Below, piece by piece: positions 957-8,639 of a stretch of 64,000 bases of DNA. The translations under genes and the position numbers were made by a program. Location of the stretch: NCBI GenBank assembly GCA_002843155.1, contig PGZD01000004.1, positions 1 through 64,000 on the forward strand. The letters are read 5' to 3'. The notes under the pieces are model-generated. The model made no database searches and had not been told where the DNA came from. It worked only from the letters and a program-made list of their open reading frames with translations. Source of the DNA: Gammaproteobacteria bacterium HGW-Gammaproteobacteria-3. Lineage in GTDB: Bacteria; Pseudomonadota; Gammaproteobacteria; Methylococcales; Methylomonadaceae. The stretch's first letter is position 1. Every line of letters begins with the position of its first letter.

Positions 957-3398
957 ATGGCCGTCCGATCCTTACGCATACTGGGTGCTTTTCTGGCTGG
1001 CGATAGCCGCCCGCCCGCGCATCAGCGCCAAGCCATTCCCATCATTCTGCCGCCGCAGCCGGGCGCAGCACCCAGCGACAAGCCGCCGGTGCGTATTTTT
1101 ATCGGTTCTGAAGCGGCCCAGTTCCGCGCCGAGCGCGCACTGGTTTGGTCGGTGCAGCGTGCGCGCGACCCTGCACGCTGTTACGAGATTTATTTAATGC
1201 GCGATTTTGCAGGTTTCAAGCGCCGCCTGTGGCTTACCGGCTTTACCAATTACCGTTTCGCCATCCCCGAGCTGGCCGGCGGCCAGGGCCGCGCCATTTA
1301 CAACGACGCCGATCAAATCTATCTGCAAGACCCGGCGCTGCTGTTCGATACGCCCATGGCCGGGCACGGCGTATTGTCCATTCACGATCACGACACTTCG
1401 GTCATGCTCATCGACTGCGCGCGCATGGCGGATTTGTGGAATTGGCAGTCGGCCCAAACCACACGCAACCGCAAGCTGGAGCGGCAGATGCGCGCCGTCC
1501 CCGGCTTGTGGGGCGAACTGGACGGCGCCTGGAACGCCCGCGACGAAGAATATGCGCCAGGACTTTCGGCCTTGGTGCATTACACCACCATCCATACCCA
1601 ACCCTGGCGCCCTACGCCGCGAGATTATGTTTATGGCGACAATGCGGCCGGTGAACTTTGGTTCGGGCTTGAACGCGAAGCCGATGCCGCAGGTTTTCAG
1701 CTTTTTTCGGCAGACCGGCCCAGCCCCGAATTTGCCGCTGCAGCCGGTCAACACCTGCTTGCACCGCATTCAGACCTGGCCGACATCCGGCGGTTACTGG
1801 CCGACTCAAACGCGCGTTCTTTGTATTATTGCGGCGCCGGGGCGGCGGATACCATAAAAAGCCTTGCGGGCATCGGCGATTTGACAGCCGCCGCCATCGC
1901 TACCGCCACGCCCGAAACCGAGCCTGTATGCGCTTTGGTTCAATCCGGCGCCGATGTGGTCTACGCCGACGGCCTGGAGCGATTGCCCGATCTGGATATT
2001 GCCTGGCTGCTGGAGCGGCTGTTCACGCGCGCGCGCCTTGCCGTGCTGGTGACGGTCGATCTGACGGACGCTAAGGTTCTGCGCTGCCCGCAAGATGATC
2101 TATGGTGGTATGGCCAATTGGCCGCCGCCGGAGCCCGTCATCCCCATTGCCATTGGCGCCTCGTTGTGCGGCAAAAACGCTTTCCGGCACGGCGCGTCAG
2201 CCGGTATTGGTCGGGCGGCGCGCTGTTGCACACACCGCCCTCGACCTGGGTGCTGCTGTATTACAAAACCGGCCACCAAAGCCAGACGCTGGGTGTCGCC
2301 GACGCACTGGGCTGGCCTTATCAAACGCGCGAAATTCGCCCACGCCTGTTTCGCTACACGCTGGCGGCGCTGCGCTGCCAATTTGTGCAAGATGCCGGAT
2401 TAGATGACACCATCCGACCGCCCTGGCCCGATGTTATTATTGCTTCGGGTTGGCTGCCCGGTCTGGTGGCGCGTTGGATCGTGCAATGCAACCACGGCGC
2501 TACCCGGCTGATTCTGATGGGCCGTCGCGGCGGCCCGGTCGGTGAATCCCAGGACCTTGCCATTCAATGCCGACATTTCGATTTGCCGCCGCATCCCCAA
2601 CATATTGAAACCGTGTTGCCGCCGTCCAAGGTTGACGCACAATCGCTGGCGCAGGCCGCCGCGCGCTGGCCCGCCTTGTTTGGCGACGGCGCCCATCCCC
2701 GGGTTGTGTTATTGGTCGGCGGCGATTGCGCCCAGTATGAATTGAACGCGGACACAGCCAAGCAAATGGCGTCTCGTGTGCGCCGCCAGATTGATACCAT
2801 CGGCGGCACCCTGGCGGTAGTGACCAGCCGCCGCACCCGCCCCGAAGCACAGGCGGCGCTGCAAGCAGGCGCGGGCGAAAACGCGCTGTCCGAAGCGTGG
2901 CGGCCGCAGGCGAAAGAGGACAATCCTTATCTGGGTTATCTGGCCGCAGCGGACATTCTGATCGTTACTGGCGATAGCGAATCCATGCTGGCCGAAGCCG
3001 TGAACACCGGCAAGCCGGTTTATATCTATCCCTTGCCGACCCGCCCTCCCGATCTGCGGCAACGGTTGACCGACTGGGTAATCCGGCAGGCGCAGACAGG
3101 CCGCCTCAATGCGCGCGGTTCGCGCCGTCCCCAGCAAGGCTTGCATTATTTGTGCGCGCGCCTGATCGAGCAACGCATCATGCTGCCGCAACGCAATATT
3201 CCCGCGCTGCAACAAGCGCTGGTAGAGCGGGGCGTGGCCCGGCTGTTCGAGGACTCGCTGGCCACCTGGCAGCCGCCGGTTTGGCAAGAAATTGAAACGC
3301 TGGCGCAACAAATCCACGCGCGCTGGCCACAGGCCGGAGCGCCGCAAGCGCCAGCCAATCCACCTGAAACCGAACAGCACCCTGCCGCCCATGCCTGA
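957..3398 (+). CDS. GT8-like / ELM1-like fusion glycosyltransferase
   Basis: This 813-residue protein has two apparent sugar-transfer modules. The N-terminal half (about 45-270) looks like a nucleotide-sugar transferase with a DxD-type motif in IYNDADQIYLQDP at about 114-126. The C-terminal part (about 430-760) belongs to the ELM1 / DUF1022 family (Mito_fiss_Elm1), with the opening LLYYKTGHQSQTLGVADALG and the late motif NPYLGYLAAADILIVTGDS. Bacterial ELM1 proteins are thought to be GT-B-like glycosyltransferases; no substrate can be read from the sequence. No signal peptide is apparent, so it is probably cytoplasmic. The stop overlaps the next gene by 8 nt, implying co-translation. The fusion itself is the unusual point. 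Confidence 0.75.
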   Translation: MAVRSLRILGAFLAGDSRPPAHQRQAIPIILPPQPGAAPSDKPPVRIFIGSEAAQFRAERALVWSVQRARDPARCYEIYLMRDFAGFKRRLWLTGFTNYRFAIPELAGGQGRAIYNDADQIYLQDPALLFDTPMAGHGVLSIHDHDTSVMLIDCARMADLWNWQSAQTTRNRKLERQMRAVPGLWGELDGAWNARDEEYAPGLSALVHYTTIHTQPWRPTPRDYVYGDNAAGELWFGLEREADAAGFQLFSADRPSPEFAAAAGQHLLAPHSDLADIRRLLADSNARSLYYCGAGAADTIKSLAGIGDLTAAAIATATPETEPVCALVQSGADVVYADGLERLPDLDIAWLLERLFTRARLAVLVTVDLTDAKVLRCPQDDLWWYGQLAAAGARHPHCHWRLVVRQKRFPARRVSRYWSGGALLHTPPSTWVLLYYKTGHQSQTLGVADALGWPYQTREIRPRLFRYTLAALRCQFVQDAGLDDTIRPPWPDVIIASGWLPGLVARWIVQCNHGATRLILMGRRGGPVGESQDLAIQCRHFDLPPHPQHIETVLPPSKVDAQSLAQAAARWPALFGDGAHPRVVLLVGGDCAQYELNADTAKQMASRVRRQIDTIGGTLAVVTSRRTRPEAQAALQAGAGENALSEAWRPQAKEDNPYLGYLAAADILIVTGDSESMLAEAVNTGKPVYIYPLPTRPPDLRQRLTDWVIRQAQTGRLNARGSRRPQQGLHYLCARLIEQRIMLPQRNIPALQQALVERGVARLFEDSLATWQPPVWQEIETLAQQIHARWPQAGAPQAPANPPETEQHPAAHA

Positions 3399-4479
3399 CA
3401 TCACGCAAACCGCCGCGTCAACGCCGCTCGTGTGGGTGCTGCTGGGTGAAGGCGCGGGCGGTAACGCGCAAATGCTGCAATTGGCCAAGGCGTTGGGCTG
3501 GCCGTACAGCGCCAAACAAATGCGCTATAACCGGCTCAATCATTTGCCCAATCCTTTGCTGGGCGCCTCGGCGGTAACCGTGGACCGGAAACGTTCCGAC
3601 AGCTTAACGCCGCCCTGGCCGGATCTGGTGATAGCGGCGTCGCGCCGCGCGGCGCCGGTGGCGAGATGGCTGAAAAAACGCTCAGGCGGGCGCACCCGGC
3701 TTGTGCATTTATTGCATACGCAAGCGCCGCTGCATCATTTTGATCTGATCGTGACACTGCCGCAATATTGCCTGCCGCACCCCGAAAACGTGTTACATAA
3801 CACCCTGCCCCTGAATACGCTCGACCCGGAGAGGCTGCAACGCGCAGCACTCAACTGGCAGCCGCGCCTCGCCCATCTCCCAAGGCCCTGGATCGCGGTG
3901 CTGGTGGGCGGCAACAGTTCCAGCTATCGGCTGGACGCCGCCATTGCCGCGCGACTGGGCGAGCACGCCAGCGCTGCTGCCGATGCCGCCGGCGGCAGCC
4001 TGTTGCTCACGACCAGCCCGCGCACACCGGAAGCGGCTGCGGCAGCGCTATTTTCCGCCGTCAATGTTCCGGCCTATACTTACCCATGGCGGCGCGGTGA
4101 TGCAGACAATCCCTATAGCGGTTTTTTGGCATTGGCGGATCGCTTTATCGTCACTGCCGACAGCGCTTCGCTACCTGCCGAAGCTTGCGCCACCGGAAAA
4201 CCGGTGGCGCTGTTCGACTGGCAACAAAAGCCCCGTCTGAGCTTGAAACTGCGTTTGCCGCTATTGGATAAACTGCGCCGCAGCCTGATTTATTGGGGCT
4301 GGTTCAAGCCGCGCCGCGATTTTGGCGCTTTTCACCGGGCGCTGGCGGCGCGCGGCCTGCTGGGCGACACGCCACCCAAAAATGCGGTAGCCGATGATCT
4401 GGCGCGCGTCGTGACGCGCATCCGCCAGCTCATGGCGCAGCGGGATAAAGCCCAAACACGCTACAATACTGAAAATTAA
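3391..4479 (+). CDS. ELM1-family (DUF1022) putative glycosyltransferase
   Basis: This 362-residue stand-alone homologue of the C-terminal half of its upstream neighbour opens with WVLLGEGAGGNAQMLQLAKA and ends its core with NPYSGFLALADRFIVTADSA, the same family signatures. The frame is open further upstream, but the ATG at 3391 is preferred because it aligns with the family start and overlaps the previous stop by only 8 nt. A paralogous pair in tandem suggests two sequential or alternative sugar transfers on one glycan. The family name comes from the mitochondrial fission protein ELM1; the role here is inferred from context. A 15-nt gap separates it from the 2OG oxygenase. Confidence 0.7.
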   Translation: MPDITQTAASTPLVWVLLGEGAGGNAQMLQLAKALGWPYSAKQMRYNRLNHLPNPLLGASAVTVDRKRSDSLTPPWPDLVIAASRRAAPVARWLKKRSGGRTRLVHLLHTQAPLHHFDLIVTLPQYCLPHPENVLHNTLPLNTLDPERLQRAALNWQPRLAHLPRPWIAVLVGGNSSSYRLDAAIAARLGEHASAAADAAGGSLLLTTSPRTPEAAAAALFSAVNVPAYTYPWRRGDADNPYSGFLALADRFIVTADSASLPAEACATGKPVALFDWQQKPRLSLKLRLPLLDKLRRSLIYWGWFKPRRDFGAFHRALAARGLLGDTPPKNAVADDLARVVTRIRQLMAQRDKAQTRYNTEN

Positions 4480-4494
4480 ACTCCGAGGTTACCG

Positions 4495-5217
4495 ATGTCA
4501 TTTCTCGACTACGAAAAACTTACCGTCGTTGACGAACAAAGCTTCCAGCAGGCCAAGCCCTATCCCTGGATCAATCCTAAGGGCCTGCTCACCGATGCGG
4601 GCTACCAGCGCTTGCTGGAGACTTTGCCCACGCTGGAGCAGATGACGCCGATGCTGGGTGTGCAACGCTCGCACGGGCAACAACCGCACGACCGCTACGC
4701 ACTGGAATACAACGAAAATCTCGACGTGGATCCGGCCTGGCACGCGTTCGCCGCCGAGCTGACGGACGGACCCTACCGGGATTTCATTCAGCGCCTGTAC
4801 GGGCGCGGGCGCTTTAAACTCAATATGCACTGGCATTATGCGCCGCGTGGCGCATCGGTTTCGCCGCATTGTGACGCAGCCCGTAAACTAGGATCCCATA
4901 TTTTCTATTTCAGCGACCCGGAAAACTGGAGCCGGGATTGGGGCGGAGACACCCTGATTCTGGATGATAACCGGCGTTTTTCGCGCAACTCCGCGCCTCG
5001 CTTTGAAGACTTCGATCACGCCTATGCCGGCGAGAGCCTGGGTAACTACAGCCTGCTGTTTCAGCGCCAGGAAAATTCCTGGCACGGCGTGCGCGAAATC
5101 ACCTGTCCGGAAGGGCAATTCCGCAAAGTGTTTATCGTGGTCATCAACGACCGTTTCCGCGCCTTGCTCAAGCGCGCGGTGACACGTCTCAAAGGCGAAG
5201 CCATTCGTGATTATTAG
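4495..5217 (+). CDS. 2OG-Fe(II) oxygenase
   Basis: This is a 240-residue protein of the prolyl-4-hydroxylase-like 2-oxoglutarate/iron dioxygenase fold. The iron facial triad is visible as H125-x-D127 (SPHCDAARKLGSH) and H197 (NSWHGVREI), with R210 as the probable 2-oxoglutarate-binding arginine. Such enzymes hydroxylate or otherwise oxidise a C-H bond using O2 and 2-oxoglutarate. GAGG lies a few bases before the ATG at 4495. It sits between glycosyltransferase-like and sulfotransferase genes, so the substrate could be a sugar, lipid or protein carrier of the same pathway (inference). The stop overlaps the sulfotransferase start. Confidence 0.8.
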   Translation: MSFLDYEKLTVVDEQSFQQAKPYPWINPKGLLTDAGYQRLLETLPTLEQMTPMLGVQRSHGQQPHDRYALEYNENLDVDPAWHAFAAELTDGPYRDFIQRLYGRGRFKLNMHWHYAPRGASVSPHCDAARKLGSHIFYFSDPENWSRDWGGDTLILDDNRRFSRNSAPRFEDFDHAYAGESLGNYSLLFQRQENSWHGVREITCPEGQFRKVFIVVINDRFRALLKRAVTRLKGEAIRDY

Positions 5218-6187
5218 TACGCAGGACAAGCCGCGCAGTATCGCCGTGGTCGTGCTCGGCGCCGGACGCAGCGGCACCAGCGCCATCACGCGCGGCGTAC
5301 AGACGCTGGGCGTCGATCTGGGCGACAGGCTCAGGCCGCCCGGCGGCAAAAATCCCACCGGCTTTTTTGAAGACCAGGATTTGCTGGCACTGAACCAGCG
5401 CCTTAAACGCCTGCTCGGCATTCGCGGCCACAGTCTGCGCCTGATCACGCCGGCGCTTTGGGACACGACTGAAGTCAGGGCCTTGCATGAGGAAGCGGTA
5501 AACACCGTGCGCGAACGATTCGGCCACGCGCCTTTGTGGGGTTTCAAGTATGGCCGCACGCTGCGTATGCTGCCGTTTTGGCAGCGCGTCTTCGCCGAGT
5601 TGGACATGGATGTACGCTATGTTTTGGCCTTGCGCAATCCGCTCAGTGTTGCCCGTTCACGCGCGCAGTTAAACCCCGATCGCGGACGTCAGGCCTGGAG
5701 CGATATGGAATGGCTGGTCAACGTGGCGCCGTATTTTGGCCGGGTACAGGGACATGCCCTGGCGGCGGTGGATTTCGATGCAGTGCTAAGCGACCCGGCG
5801 GCGCAATTGGAACGCATCGCGGCTTTGTTACAACTGCCATTGGGAACATCGGAGCGGAAAGCGATAAAGACCTATGCGCAAACTTTTTTACGCCCCGGTA
5901 TGCGTCACAGCCAATATCAACTTTCCGATCTGGAACACAATCCCGAGGTATACCGGCTGGTAACAGAAGCCTATGGCTGGCTGCATCGGCTGGCCCATGA
6001 CGAGATAAAACCCGATGATACGACGCTTTGGGCCGATTGGGCGCGTATTGAAAGCGCAGTGCTGGATTTGGCGCCGCTACTGGCCGAGTTTGACAGCCTG
6101 CGCTGCCGTCTCGACCGGACCTTGTGGAATCCCGCGTCGCCAATACAAGCGCTGCGGCAAGTGTGGCGCGACTTGCGCAGCCGTTGA
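5207..6187 (+). CDS. Sulfotransferase family protein
   Basis: This 326-residue protein has the PAPS-binding 5'-phosphosulfate loop near its N-terminus (LGAGRSGTSAITRG, about 17-30) and a later 3'-phosphate-binding stretch (RNPLSVARSR). Sulfotransferases move sulfate from PAPS to a hydroxyl or amine. Translation probably starts at the GTG at 5207, inside the end of the 2OG oxygenase gene (11-nt overlap), so the two are translationally coupled. Hydroxylation followed by sulfation would be a logical two-step modification, which is an inference. It is the last gene of the plus-strand cluster. Confidence 0.8.
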   Translation: MIISTQDKPRSIAVVVLGAGRSGTSAITRGVQTLGVDLGDRLRPPGGKNPTGFFEDQDLLALNQRLKRLLGIRGHSLRLITPALWDTTEVRALHEEAVNTVRERFGHAPLWGFKYGRTLRMLPFWQRVFAELDMDVRYVLALRNPLSVARSRAQLNPDRGRQAWSDMEWLVNVAPYFGRVQGHALAAVDFDAVLSDPAAQLERIAALLQLPLGTSERKAIKTYAQTFLRPGMRHSQYQLSDLEHNPEVYRLVTEAYGWLHRLAHDEIKPDDTTLWADWARIESAVLDLAPLLAEFDSLRCRLDRTLWNPASPIQALRQVWRDLRSR

Positions 6188-6935: not shown

Positions 6936-8537
6936 TCAGGGTTTTAGAATGCTGCTGCGCGCAGGCTGGCTTTTGTCCAGGGCCGGATAATCGAGGGTGA
7001 AATGCAGCCCCCGGCTTTCTTTGCGTTGCTGGGCGCAGCGGACAATGAGTTCGGCTACAATGACCAGATTGCGCAGTTCCAGCAAGTCGCTGGTCACTCT
7101 AAAATGACTGTAATACTCGGTAATTTCGCCTTTGAGTAAGTCGATACGGCGCAATGCACGGCTCAACCTTTTGTCCGACCTGACAATACCGACATAATCC
7201 CACATGAAATGCCGCAGTTCGTTCCAGTTGTGTGATACCACGACTTCTTCATCGGAGTCGATGACTTTGGACTCGTCCCATTCGCGCAGTACGGGCGGTT
7301 TTGGCAGATGGGGCAGTTTCTTGAGTATATCGATGCTGGCGCGCTCGGCAAATACCAGGCATTCCAGCAACGAATTGCTGGCCATGCGGTTGGCGCCGTG
7401 CAGACCGGTGCAGGCCACTTCGCCAACGGCATAAAGGTTGGAAATATCGGTGAGCGCGTTGGCGTCGGTGATGATGCCGCCACAGGTGTAATGCGCCGCA
7501 GGCACCACGGGAATGGGTTGTCGCGTGATGTCGATAGCCAGTTCGAGACAGCGTTTATAAATGGTCGGGAAATGTTCCTGAATGAAAGCGGAAGGCTTGT
7601 GGCTGATATCCAGGTAAACGCAGTCGATGCCTCTTTTTTTCATTTCATGATCGATGGCCCGCGCCACAATATCGCGGGGCGCCAGCTCTTGTCTGGGGTC
7701 GTATTTATGCATGAAGGCCGAACCATTCGGCAGTATGAGCTTGCCGCCTTCACCCCGAACCGCTTCGCTGATCAGAAACGATTGGCCTTGAGAATGATAG
7801 AGGCAGGTCGGATGGAACTGCATGAATTCCATATTGCCGACGCGGCAACCGGCACGCCAGGCCAGGGCAATACCATCACCGGTGGCTATTTGCGGATTAG
7901 TGCTGTAAAGATAAACCTTACTGGCGCCGCCGGTGGCTAAAGCAAACGCGCGGGCGGCAATGGCGCGCACCTTGTTGGACTTGATGTCGAGCACATAGGC
8001 ACCGAGCACCCTGTTTGGGCTTACGCCGATTTTTTGACCGGTGATCAGATCGATTACGTTATAATGCTCGAATATTTCAATATTAGGATGCGCTTGCGCG
8101 CGCGCGACCAATGCATTGGATACCGCTTTGCCGGTGGCGTCGGCCGTATGCACGATGCGCCGATGCGAGTGTCCGCCTTCGCGGTTTAAATGCAGATGCG
8201 ACTCGCCGTTGGCCGCCTGTTCTTCGGTAAACGCCACGCCTTGCTGTCTCAGCCAGTCTATCGATTCTTTGCCGTGCGTAACGGTTAATTTGACAATTTC
8301 AGGATCGCAAAGCCCGGCGCCTGCATCCAGTGTGTCGGTAATGTGTGATGCCAGCGAATCTTGCTCATCGAGCACCGCAGATATTCCGCCTTGAGCGTAA
8401 TAGGTGCTGCCTTCGGAAACGCTGCATTTTGATAAAACGGCAATGCGCGCATGGTCTGCCATCTTGAGCGCCAGGCTTAAGCCCGCGCCGCCGCTGCCAA
8501 CAATTAGAACGTCATAAGAAGAGTCTGGATGATTCAT
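6936..8537 (-). CDS. nadB: L-aspartate oxidase
   Basis: NadB oxidises L-aspartate to iminoaspartate, the first step of de novo NAD synthesis; the product goes to quinolinate synthase NadA. The 533 residues match the family length. An N-terminal FAD-binding motif ([13 protein letters not shown], about 13-25) and the succinate dehydrogenase/fumarate reductase-like active-site stretch ([13 protein letters not shown]) are visible. Transcribed away from rpoE, as in many gammaproteobacteria where nadB and rpoE are divergent neighbours. No nadA or nadC is in the window. Confidence 0.95.
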
Positions 8538-8639
8538 TTAGTTACTCGGGTACACTGCAAAGCTGTTGTTTTGAAGCTATTATCGGGTGAAGTCAAAGCG
8601 AATTTTAAGCGGTGAATACGGGATAGGAAGGTGAAGGTT

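Follow-up and report, generated by a model that had tools for sequence, protein, structure and literature searches.

A four-gene cluster in a Methylomonadaceae genome as a putative head-group module for a sulfated glycosphingolipid

What does a bacterium make with genes for two ELM1-family glycosyltransferases, an oxygenase and a sulfotransferase placed end to end? We encountered this question in a 64,000-nucleotide stretch of DNA (the window) from Gammaproteobacteria bacterium HGW-Gammaproteobacteria-3 (Methylomonadaceae), where four such genes, here called genes 1 to 4, lie close to the start. The genome comprises 3.13 Mb in 135 contigs, and the window takes up the first 64 kb of contig C122 (PGZD01000004.1); its position 1 is the contig end, and the gene neighbourhood is readable only rightward. 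A first-pass annotation, made from the sequence alone, had suggested that the cluster builds a sugar chain, hydroxylates it or its carrier, and sulfates the new hydroxyl. Our analysis favours, at a probability of about two in three, a head-group module for a sulfated, hydroxylated glycosphingolipid. The chain building, hydroxylation and sulfation of the earlier proposal are supported; the carrier, which had been left as an unspecified surface glycan, was not anticipated. The predicted acceptor is likely ceramide, because distant bacteria have the same genes next to, or in the same genomes as, genes for making ceramide.

Recurrence of the cluster and its association with spt

Re-reading the open reading frames returned exactly the four plus-strand genes annotated at 957-6187, joined by an 8-nt overlap (genes 1 and 2), a 15-nt gap (genes 2 and 3) and an 11-nt overlap (genes 3 and 4) (Table 1). 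That they form a single operon is borne out by other genomes: the neighbourhood occurs complete and in the same order, at 52-65% identity (58% for gene 2 and 65% for gene 3), in G427, a member of another family, and in part in G163. Because the four-gene order recurs in G427, the cluster is more than a chance arrangement. Promoter and terminator scans gave results at or below shuffled expectation, and NCBIfam has a family for none of the four proteins.

The G427 locus also points to a pathway. Its four genes start 2.7 kb downstream of spt, with genes for FAAL, a CerR-like protein, SPT, a short-chain dehydrogenase/reductase, an Asp/Asn hydroxylase and an LpxL-type acyltransferase upstream, and a GT4 glycosyltransferase and an ABC exporter downstream. 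We searched a class-wide sample of 369 genomes (368 besides the window's own) with the N-terminal domain of gene 1, and found full-length gene-1 fusions in G427, G299, G410, G396 and G270; another is present at L004, a locus of the metagenome assembly Proteobacteria bacterium UBA4575 and the single locus returned by a gene-3 scan of contigs. In G299 and G410, about 45 nt separate the start of gene 1 from the end of the spt match, and gene 3 comes next in G410. Linkage to spt extends to all four genes in G427, whereas in G410 and L004 it is genes 1 and 3, and in G299 gene 1, that stand beside spt-cerR-FAAL.

In G163, the frames of a gene-2-like ELM1 gene, gene 3 and gene 4 overlap, and after them come a second sulfotransferase gene, a GT4 gene and a GT2 gene. 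The second sulfotransferase (L092 on C60 of G163, 4848-5951, minus strand) overlaps the end of the gene-4 homologue. G163 is spt-positive, with spt on another contig. The two best gene-4 matches are precisely those that adjoin gene 3. Weak gene-3 matches in two order-level relatives, G117 and G127, were set aside, the latter (L009) being a distant 2-oxoglutarate (2OG) oxygenase gene with unrelated surroundings; none of the 150 relatives sampled at family and order level has a strong gene-3 homologue.

Table 1. Coordinates of the four genes, the parts of gene 1, and PF00685 sulfotransferase genes at other loci
Feature	Coordinates	Strand	Product	Assignment	Basis
Gene 1	957..3398	+	813 aa	GT8-type / methyltransferase-like / ELM1 fusion glycosyltransferase	ORF; PF06258 aa 439-696; homologues of same architecture
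Gene 1, aa ~41-250	1077..1706	+		GT8-type GT-A domain	alignment, WbbM profile match, GT8 fold match
Gene 1, aa ~250-430	1707..2246	+		eroded methyltransferase-like middle	BLASTP
Gene 1, aa ~432-760	2253..3236	+		ELM1 GT-B domain, SRRT motif	PF06258, clade, motif table
Gene 2	3391..4479	+	362 aa from ATG at 3391	ELM1-family GT-B glycosyltransferase, SPRT motif	
Gene 3	4495..5217	+	240 aa	2OG-Fe(II) oxygenase, P4H-like	
Gene 4	5207..6187	+	326 aa, GTG start	PAPS-type sulfotransferase	
L044	5391-6407			PF00685 sulfotransferase	
L099	19026-19802			PF00685 sulfotransferase	
L100	1359-2276, 3303-4280			PF00685 sulfotransferases	

Does the window's own genome make ceramide? Contig C121 carries aasR-cerR-acpR-spt and a GNAT cerS-like gene, that is, spt together with aasR/FAAL, cerR, acpR and a cerS-like gene. 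NCBIfam identifies SPT (NF047599, 581 bits against a cut-off of 500), FAAL (NF006624, 742 against 600) and MsbA (above cut-off), while the ACP and epimerase were assigned by Pfam, and the cerS-like GNAT by Pfam family and position only. The locus (L055, 3714-18712 of C121) also includes an MsbA-type exporter, LptF/LptG-like genes and an OlsC-like 2-hydroxylase. The rhodobacterial ceramide gene set and the Caulobacter phosphosphingolipid (CPG) cluster (PMC9386255, PMC11324152) have in common with this genome aasR-cerR-acpR-spt, a cerS-like gene, a flippase and LptF/LptG-like genes. The head groups differ: Caulobacter adds phosphoglycerate via a ceramide kinase, whereas the window has glycosyltransferases, a 2OG oxygenase and a sulfotransferase. 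LpxL-type acyltransferases, one or two per spt locus, were seen at L036 (8092-9030), L058 (637-3194) and L099 (14122-16671); they are unexplained for a ceramide product and possibly serve head-group O-acylation.

How far can the association with spt be trusted? Against a base rate of 20 spt-positive genomes in 368, all five full gene-1 fusions occur with spt (Fisher p 3e-7), as do all six strong gene-3 homologues (Fisher p 1e-8); the sampled genomes are related, and these p-values are therefore too small, but the carriers nonetheless span several families. This relatedness weighs against a ceramide head-group module, as do four other observations. The window's own genome carries the module on one contig and spt on another, genes 1 and 3 of G396 and G270 are not beside spt, gene 4 is missing from several gene-1/gene-3 loci, and the Pfam scores of the GT8, 2OG and sulfotransferase domains are all below threshold. 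The first-pass annotation had regarded independent occurrence of the genes as fatal to its proposal, and separation is indeed found in part: L004 and G410 have genes 1 and 3 but lack gene 4, and G163 has genes 2, 3 and 4 but lacks gene 1. The parts of the cluster are modular, yet the separated loci or genomes all carry spt.

Predicted activities of the four proteins

Genes 1 and 2 had both been called ELM1-like. This agrees with their PF06258 (ELM1) scores of 184 and 216 bits against a cut-off of 27, but for gene 1 it is incomplete, since the protein is a three-part fusion. ELM1 proteins carry the annotation "mitochondrial fission protein". The only bacterial member that we found with a demonstrated reaction is KdoT, which transfers 3-deoxy-D-manno-oct-2-ulosonic acid (Kdo) to Kdo2-lipid A in Acinetobacter baumannii, and in which R180 matters (PMC12856342). 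An arginine equivalent to R180 of the KdoT SRRT motif is shared by the window's domains (SRRT in gene 1, SPRT in gene 2) with KdoT of the KdoT-GnaT pair of A. baumannii lipooligosaccharide (LOS) synthesis (PMC12856342, PMC10936431). It is conserved in 39 of 39 ELM1 sequences (the R179 position is variable) and, because it is family-wide, cannot tell the donor. Other KdoT features have changed: the HD pair is replaced by HF in gene 1 and QY in gene 2, and the D of the N-terminal D...H is lost in both.

We placed these domains in a tree of 39 ELM1 domains, built without A. baumannii KdoT and a few paralogues. The 22 domains that come from spt-positive loci or genomes, some of them in a spt-positive genome yet not beside spt, all fall in one clade (support 100/99), and spt status changes once on the tree, compared with 12.9 times in shuffles. 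Most members of this clade have QY in place of HD. The 17 domains outside it include a KdoT-like ELM1 of the window's own genome. Unlike KdoT, the window's clade lacks HD and the N-terminal D/H, shows linkage to spt instead of LOS genes and, in gene 1, has its ELM1 domain fused to a GT8-type domain.

The N-terminal part of gene 1 has a GT-A fold with a DxD in NDADQ (aa 116-120), H208 and QPW (215-217) in the alignment, motifs common to its relatives, although the DxD is missing from the divergent homologue of G270. Its Pfam score of 14.9 bits (E 0.02) falls below the GT8 cut-off of 24.3; a profile search found WbbM (E 0.011). An AlphaFold2 model (pLDDT 60 overall, with higher GT8 and ELM1 cores, and too poor for donor docking) best matches the GT8 structure 3tzt (Z 15.5, rmsd 2.9, 187 residues), followed by GlyE (Z 14.6), WbbM (Z 14.6) and LgtC (Z 13.9). 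Gene 1 shares the GT-A fold, DxD and His...Pro-Trp with the GT8 enzymes LgtC, GlyE, WbbM, LARGE1 and glycogenin, and differs from them in its sub-threshold Pfam score and its fused ELM1 GT-B domain. The middle region is homologous to a stand-alone methyltransferase-like gene in G277 (L044, 3135-3812; BLASTP E 5e-11), located with an ELM1/GT8-like region near spt; we read it as a linker because its methyltransferase motif I is eroded. The parts of gene 1 probably serve one pathway, because they are separate neighbours in G277 (L044 3135-3812, 6550-7458, and ELM1 within 7646-8608).

Could the module instead decorate the LOS core, with ELM1 acting like KdoT and the oxygenase and sulfotransferase modifying core sugars? 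We consider this improbable, but it fares best among the alternatives, since KdoT, whose reaction is the known one, adds Kdo to Kdo2-lipid A (PMC12856342), and the GT8 enzymes LgtC and WbbM, whose fold the gene-1 N-domain resembles, make LOS or O-antigen sugars. A better LOS candidate is found elsewhere in the genome, on C46, where a separate KdoT-like ELM1 with D, H, HD and SRRT stands beside a GT4 gene; the window's ELM1 domains have a changed HD, belong to the spt-associated clade and are linked to spt. The C46 ELM1 (DNKPGH, HD, SRRT) overlaps the GT4 gene (L008, 5490-7515, minus strand for the pair), and by analogy with KdoT-GnaT the two are likely a LOS-core pair outside Acinetobacter.

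Genes 3 and 4 both score below their Pfam cut-offs of 27 (25.5 for 2OG, 18.8 for sulfotransferase); the identities given in the first-pass annotation were nonetheless upheld by invariant active-site motifs and by profile or fold matches in the PDB. Gene 3 has the motifs of a prolyl 4-hydroxylase (P4H)-like 2OG-Fe(II) oxygenase, with the HxD...H iron triad and arginine (H125, D127, H197 and R210) invariant in 10 homologues, and its profile matches 9ei6 (E 2.6e-11). An assignment as Kdo hydroxylase was dropped, as its Pfam matches are solely to 2OG-FeII_Oxy_3/4. Gene 4 has the 5'-phosphosulfate-binding P-loop (G18-S25), the 3'-phosphate-binding motif (R143...S151) and the fold of a sulfotransferase dependent on 3'-phosphoadenosine 5'-phosphosulfate (PAPS); R21-S25, R143 and S151 are invariant in 17 sequences. 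A PDB sequence-profile search with gene 4 gave no match, while its AlphaFold2 model (pLDDT 87) matches TPST1 (5wrj, Z 14.2, rmsd 4.1, 209 residues). The genome encodes an adenosine 5'-phosphosulfate (APS) kinase for PAPS supply.

In G277, G485 and G230, the vicinity of the ELM1, GT8-like and spt genes includes sulfotransferases of PF00685, which is not the Pfam family that gene 4 matches best (Table 1). Because different sulfotransferases have been recruited to the same type of locus, the gene content suggests that the final product of such loci is sulfated, and sulfation may be a frequent feature of spt loci of the gammaproteobacterial type.

Enzymes of the 2OG and sulfotransferase families accept varied substrates, and gene-4 relatives occur in 38 of 369 genomes, mostly without spt. 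Unrelated small molecules or a capsule might thus be made or tailored here, with the spt association reflecting shared habitat or genome size. This is quite unlikely, given that G427 and G163 show overlapping frames and a conserved order, that the best two gene-4 matches have gene 3 as a neighbour, and that strong gene-3 homologues are confined to spt-positive genomes. No polymerase, nonribosomal peptide or polyketide synthase, or capsule-export gene adjoins the cluster, and a capsule locus was rejected for want of adjoining polymerase and export genes.

Proposed pathway and origin

If the cluster is a ceramide head-group module, ceramide from the C121 locus would gain sugars through a GT8 domain that probably acts as a retaining UDP-hexose transferase, and through the pair of ELM1 domains, putative GT-B transferases related to CMP-Kdo-using KdoT, for which CMP-Kdo is the sole donor precedent. 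Gene 3 would hydroxylate the ceramide (its acyl chain) or its sugars, and gene 4 would sulfate a hydroxyl using PAPS. MsbA/LptFG-type proteins would then flip the anionic lipid and deliver it to the outer membrane. In the earlier suggestion, the hydroxyl introduced by the oxygenase is the one that receives the sulfate. That order of events is possible but unsupported: genes 3 and 4 are separate in several genomes, and the chain is weakened by L004, G410 and G396, which have gene 3 but lack gene 4.

Sulfatide in animals is made with cerebroside sulfotransferase. If our reading is right, the window's set works alike, a PAPS sulfotransferase finishing a ceramide glycan, with other transferases and probably in the cytoplasm rather than the Golgi; the likeness would be one of pathway, and the bacterial product is a predicted one. 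A more specific version, which we offer tentatively and think doubtful as a whole, is a bacterial counterpart of sulfatide in which an ELM1-clade enzyme would add a Kdo-like acidic ulosonic sugar to a ceramide glycan, the 2OG enzyme would hydroxylate it and the PAPS sulfotransferase would sulfate it, giving a lipopolysaccharide-like, LptFG-exported sulfated glycosphingolipid and making the spt-associated ELM1 clade a new family of ceramide-glycan transferases.

How did the module reach this genome? The first-pass annotation saw a hint of acquisition in the flanks, an Rpn remnant and a PD-(D/E)XK gene. Both are there, but as weak matches below Pfam cut-offs (DUF4351, E 0.0027; PD-(D/E)XK/NERD, E 0.006-0.02). 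The DUF4351 (Rpn-type) remnant, at 95-496 on the minus strand, lies where the contig ends and has a tandem Glu-Gln-Gly-Ile repeat; the assembly may have broken there. The cluster has 61.6% GC compared with 51.5% in the remainder of the window, and its third-position GC (0.67-0.69) is modestly above the remainder (0.59, sd 0.05); base composition by itself is weak evidence for transfer. The best fit is acquisition by a ceramide maker atypical of its family, because spt is found in no other sampled member of that family, nor a strong gene-3 homologue in any of the 150 relatives. The module was thus probably acquired horizontally, from a higher-GC bacterium, as had been hinted. The same high GC and missing homologues, with the contig end at the left flank and the weak Rpn- and nuclease-like neighbours, would suit a recently acquired, inactive or decaying island without function in its host, the least probable alternative given that all active-site motifs are intact, no frame of genes 1-4 is broken and the host is among the few ceramide makers.

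Meaning for bacterial sphingolipids

Bacterial glycosphingolipids are known, and sulfated glycosphingolipids are known from animals. Searches of the open-access literature, which leaves most subscription papers outside, turned up neither genes of a bacterial route to sulfated ceramide glycans nor a ceramide-linked ELM1 clade, in agreement with the earlier remark that no described pathway with this gene set was known. With a whole ELM1 clade associated with ceramide biosynthesis, its members have a role that can be tested. If our reading is true, the GT8-ELM1 fusion, oxygenase and sulfotransferase would supply the means of making sulfated ceramide glycans, and Gammaproteobacteria-like genomes would gain a class of sulfated, anionic outer-membrane lipid.

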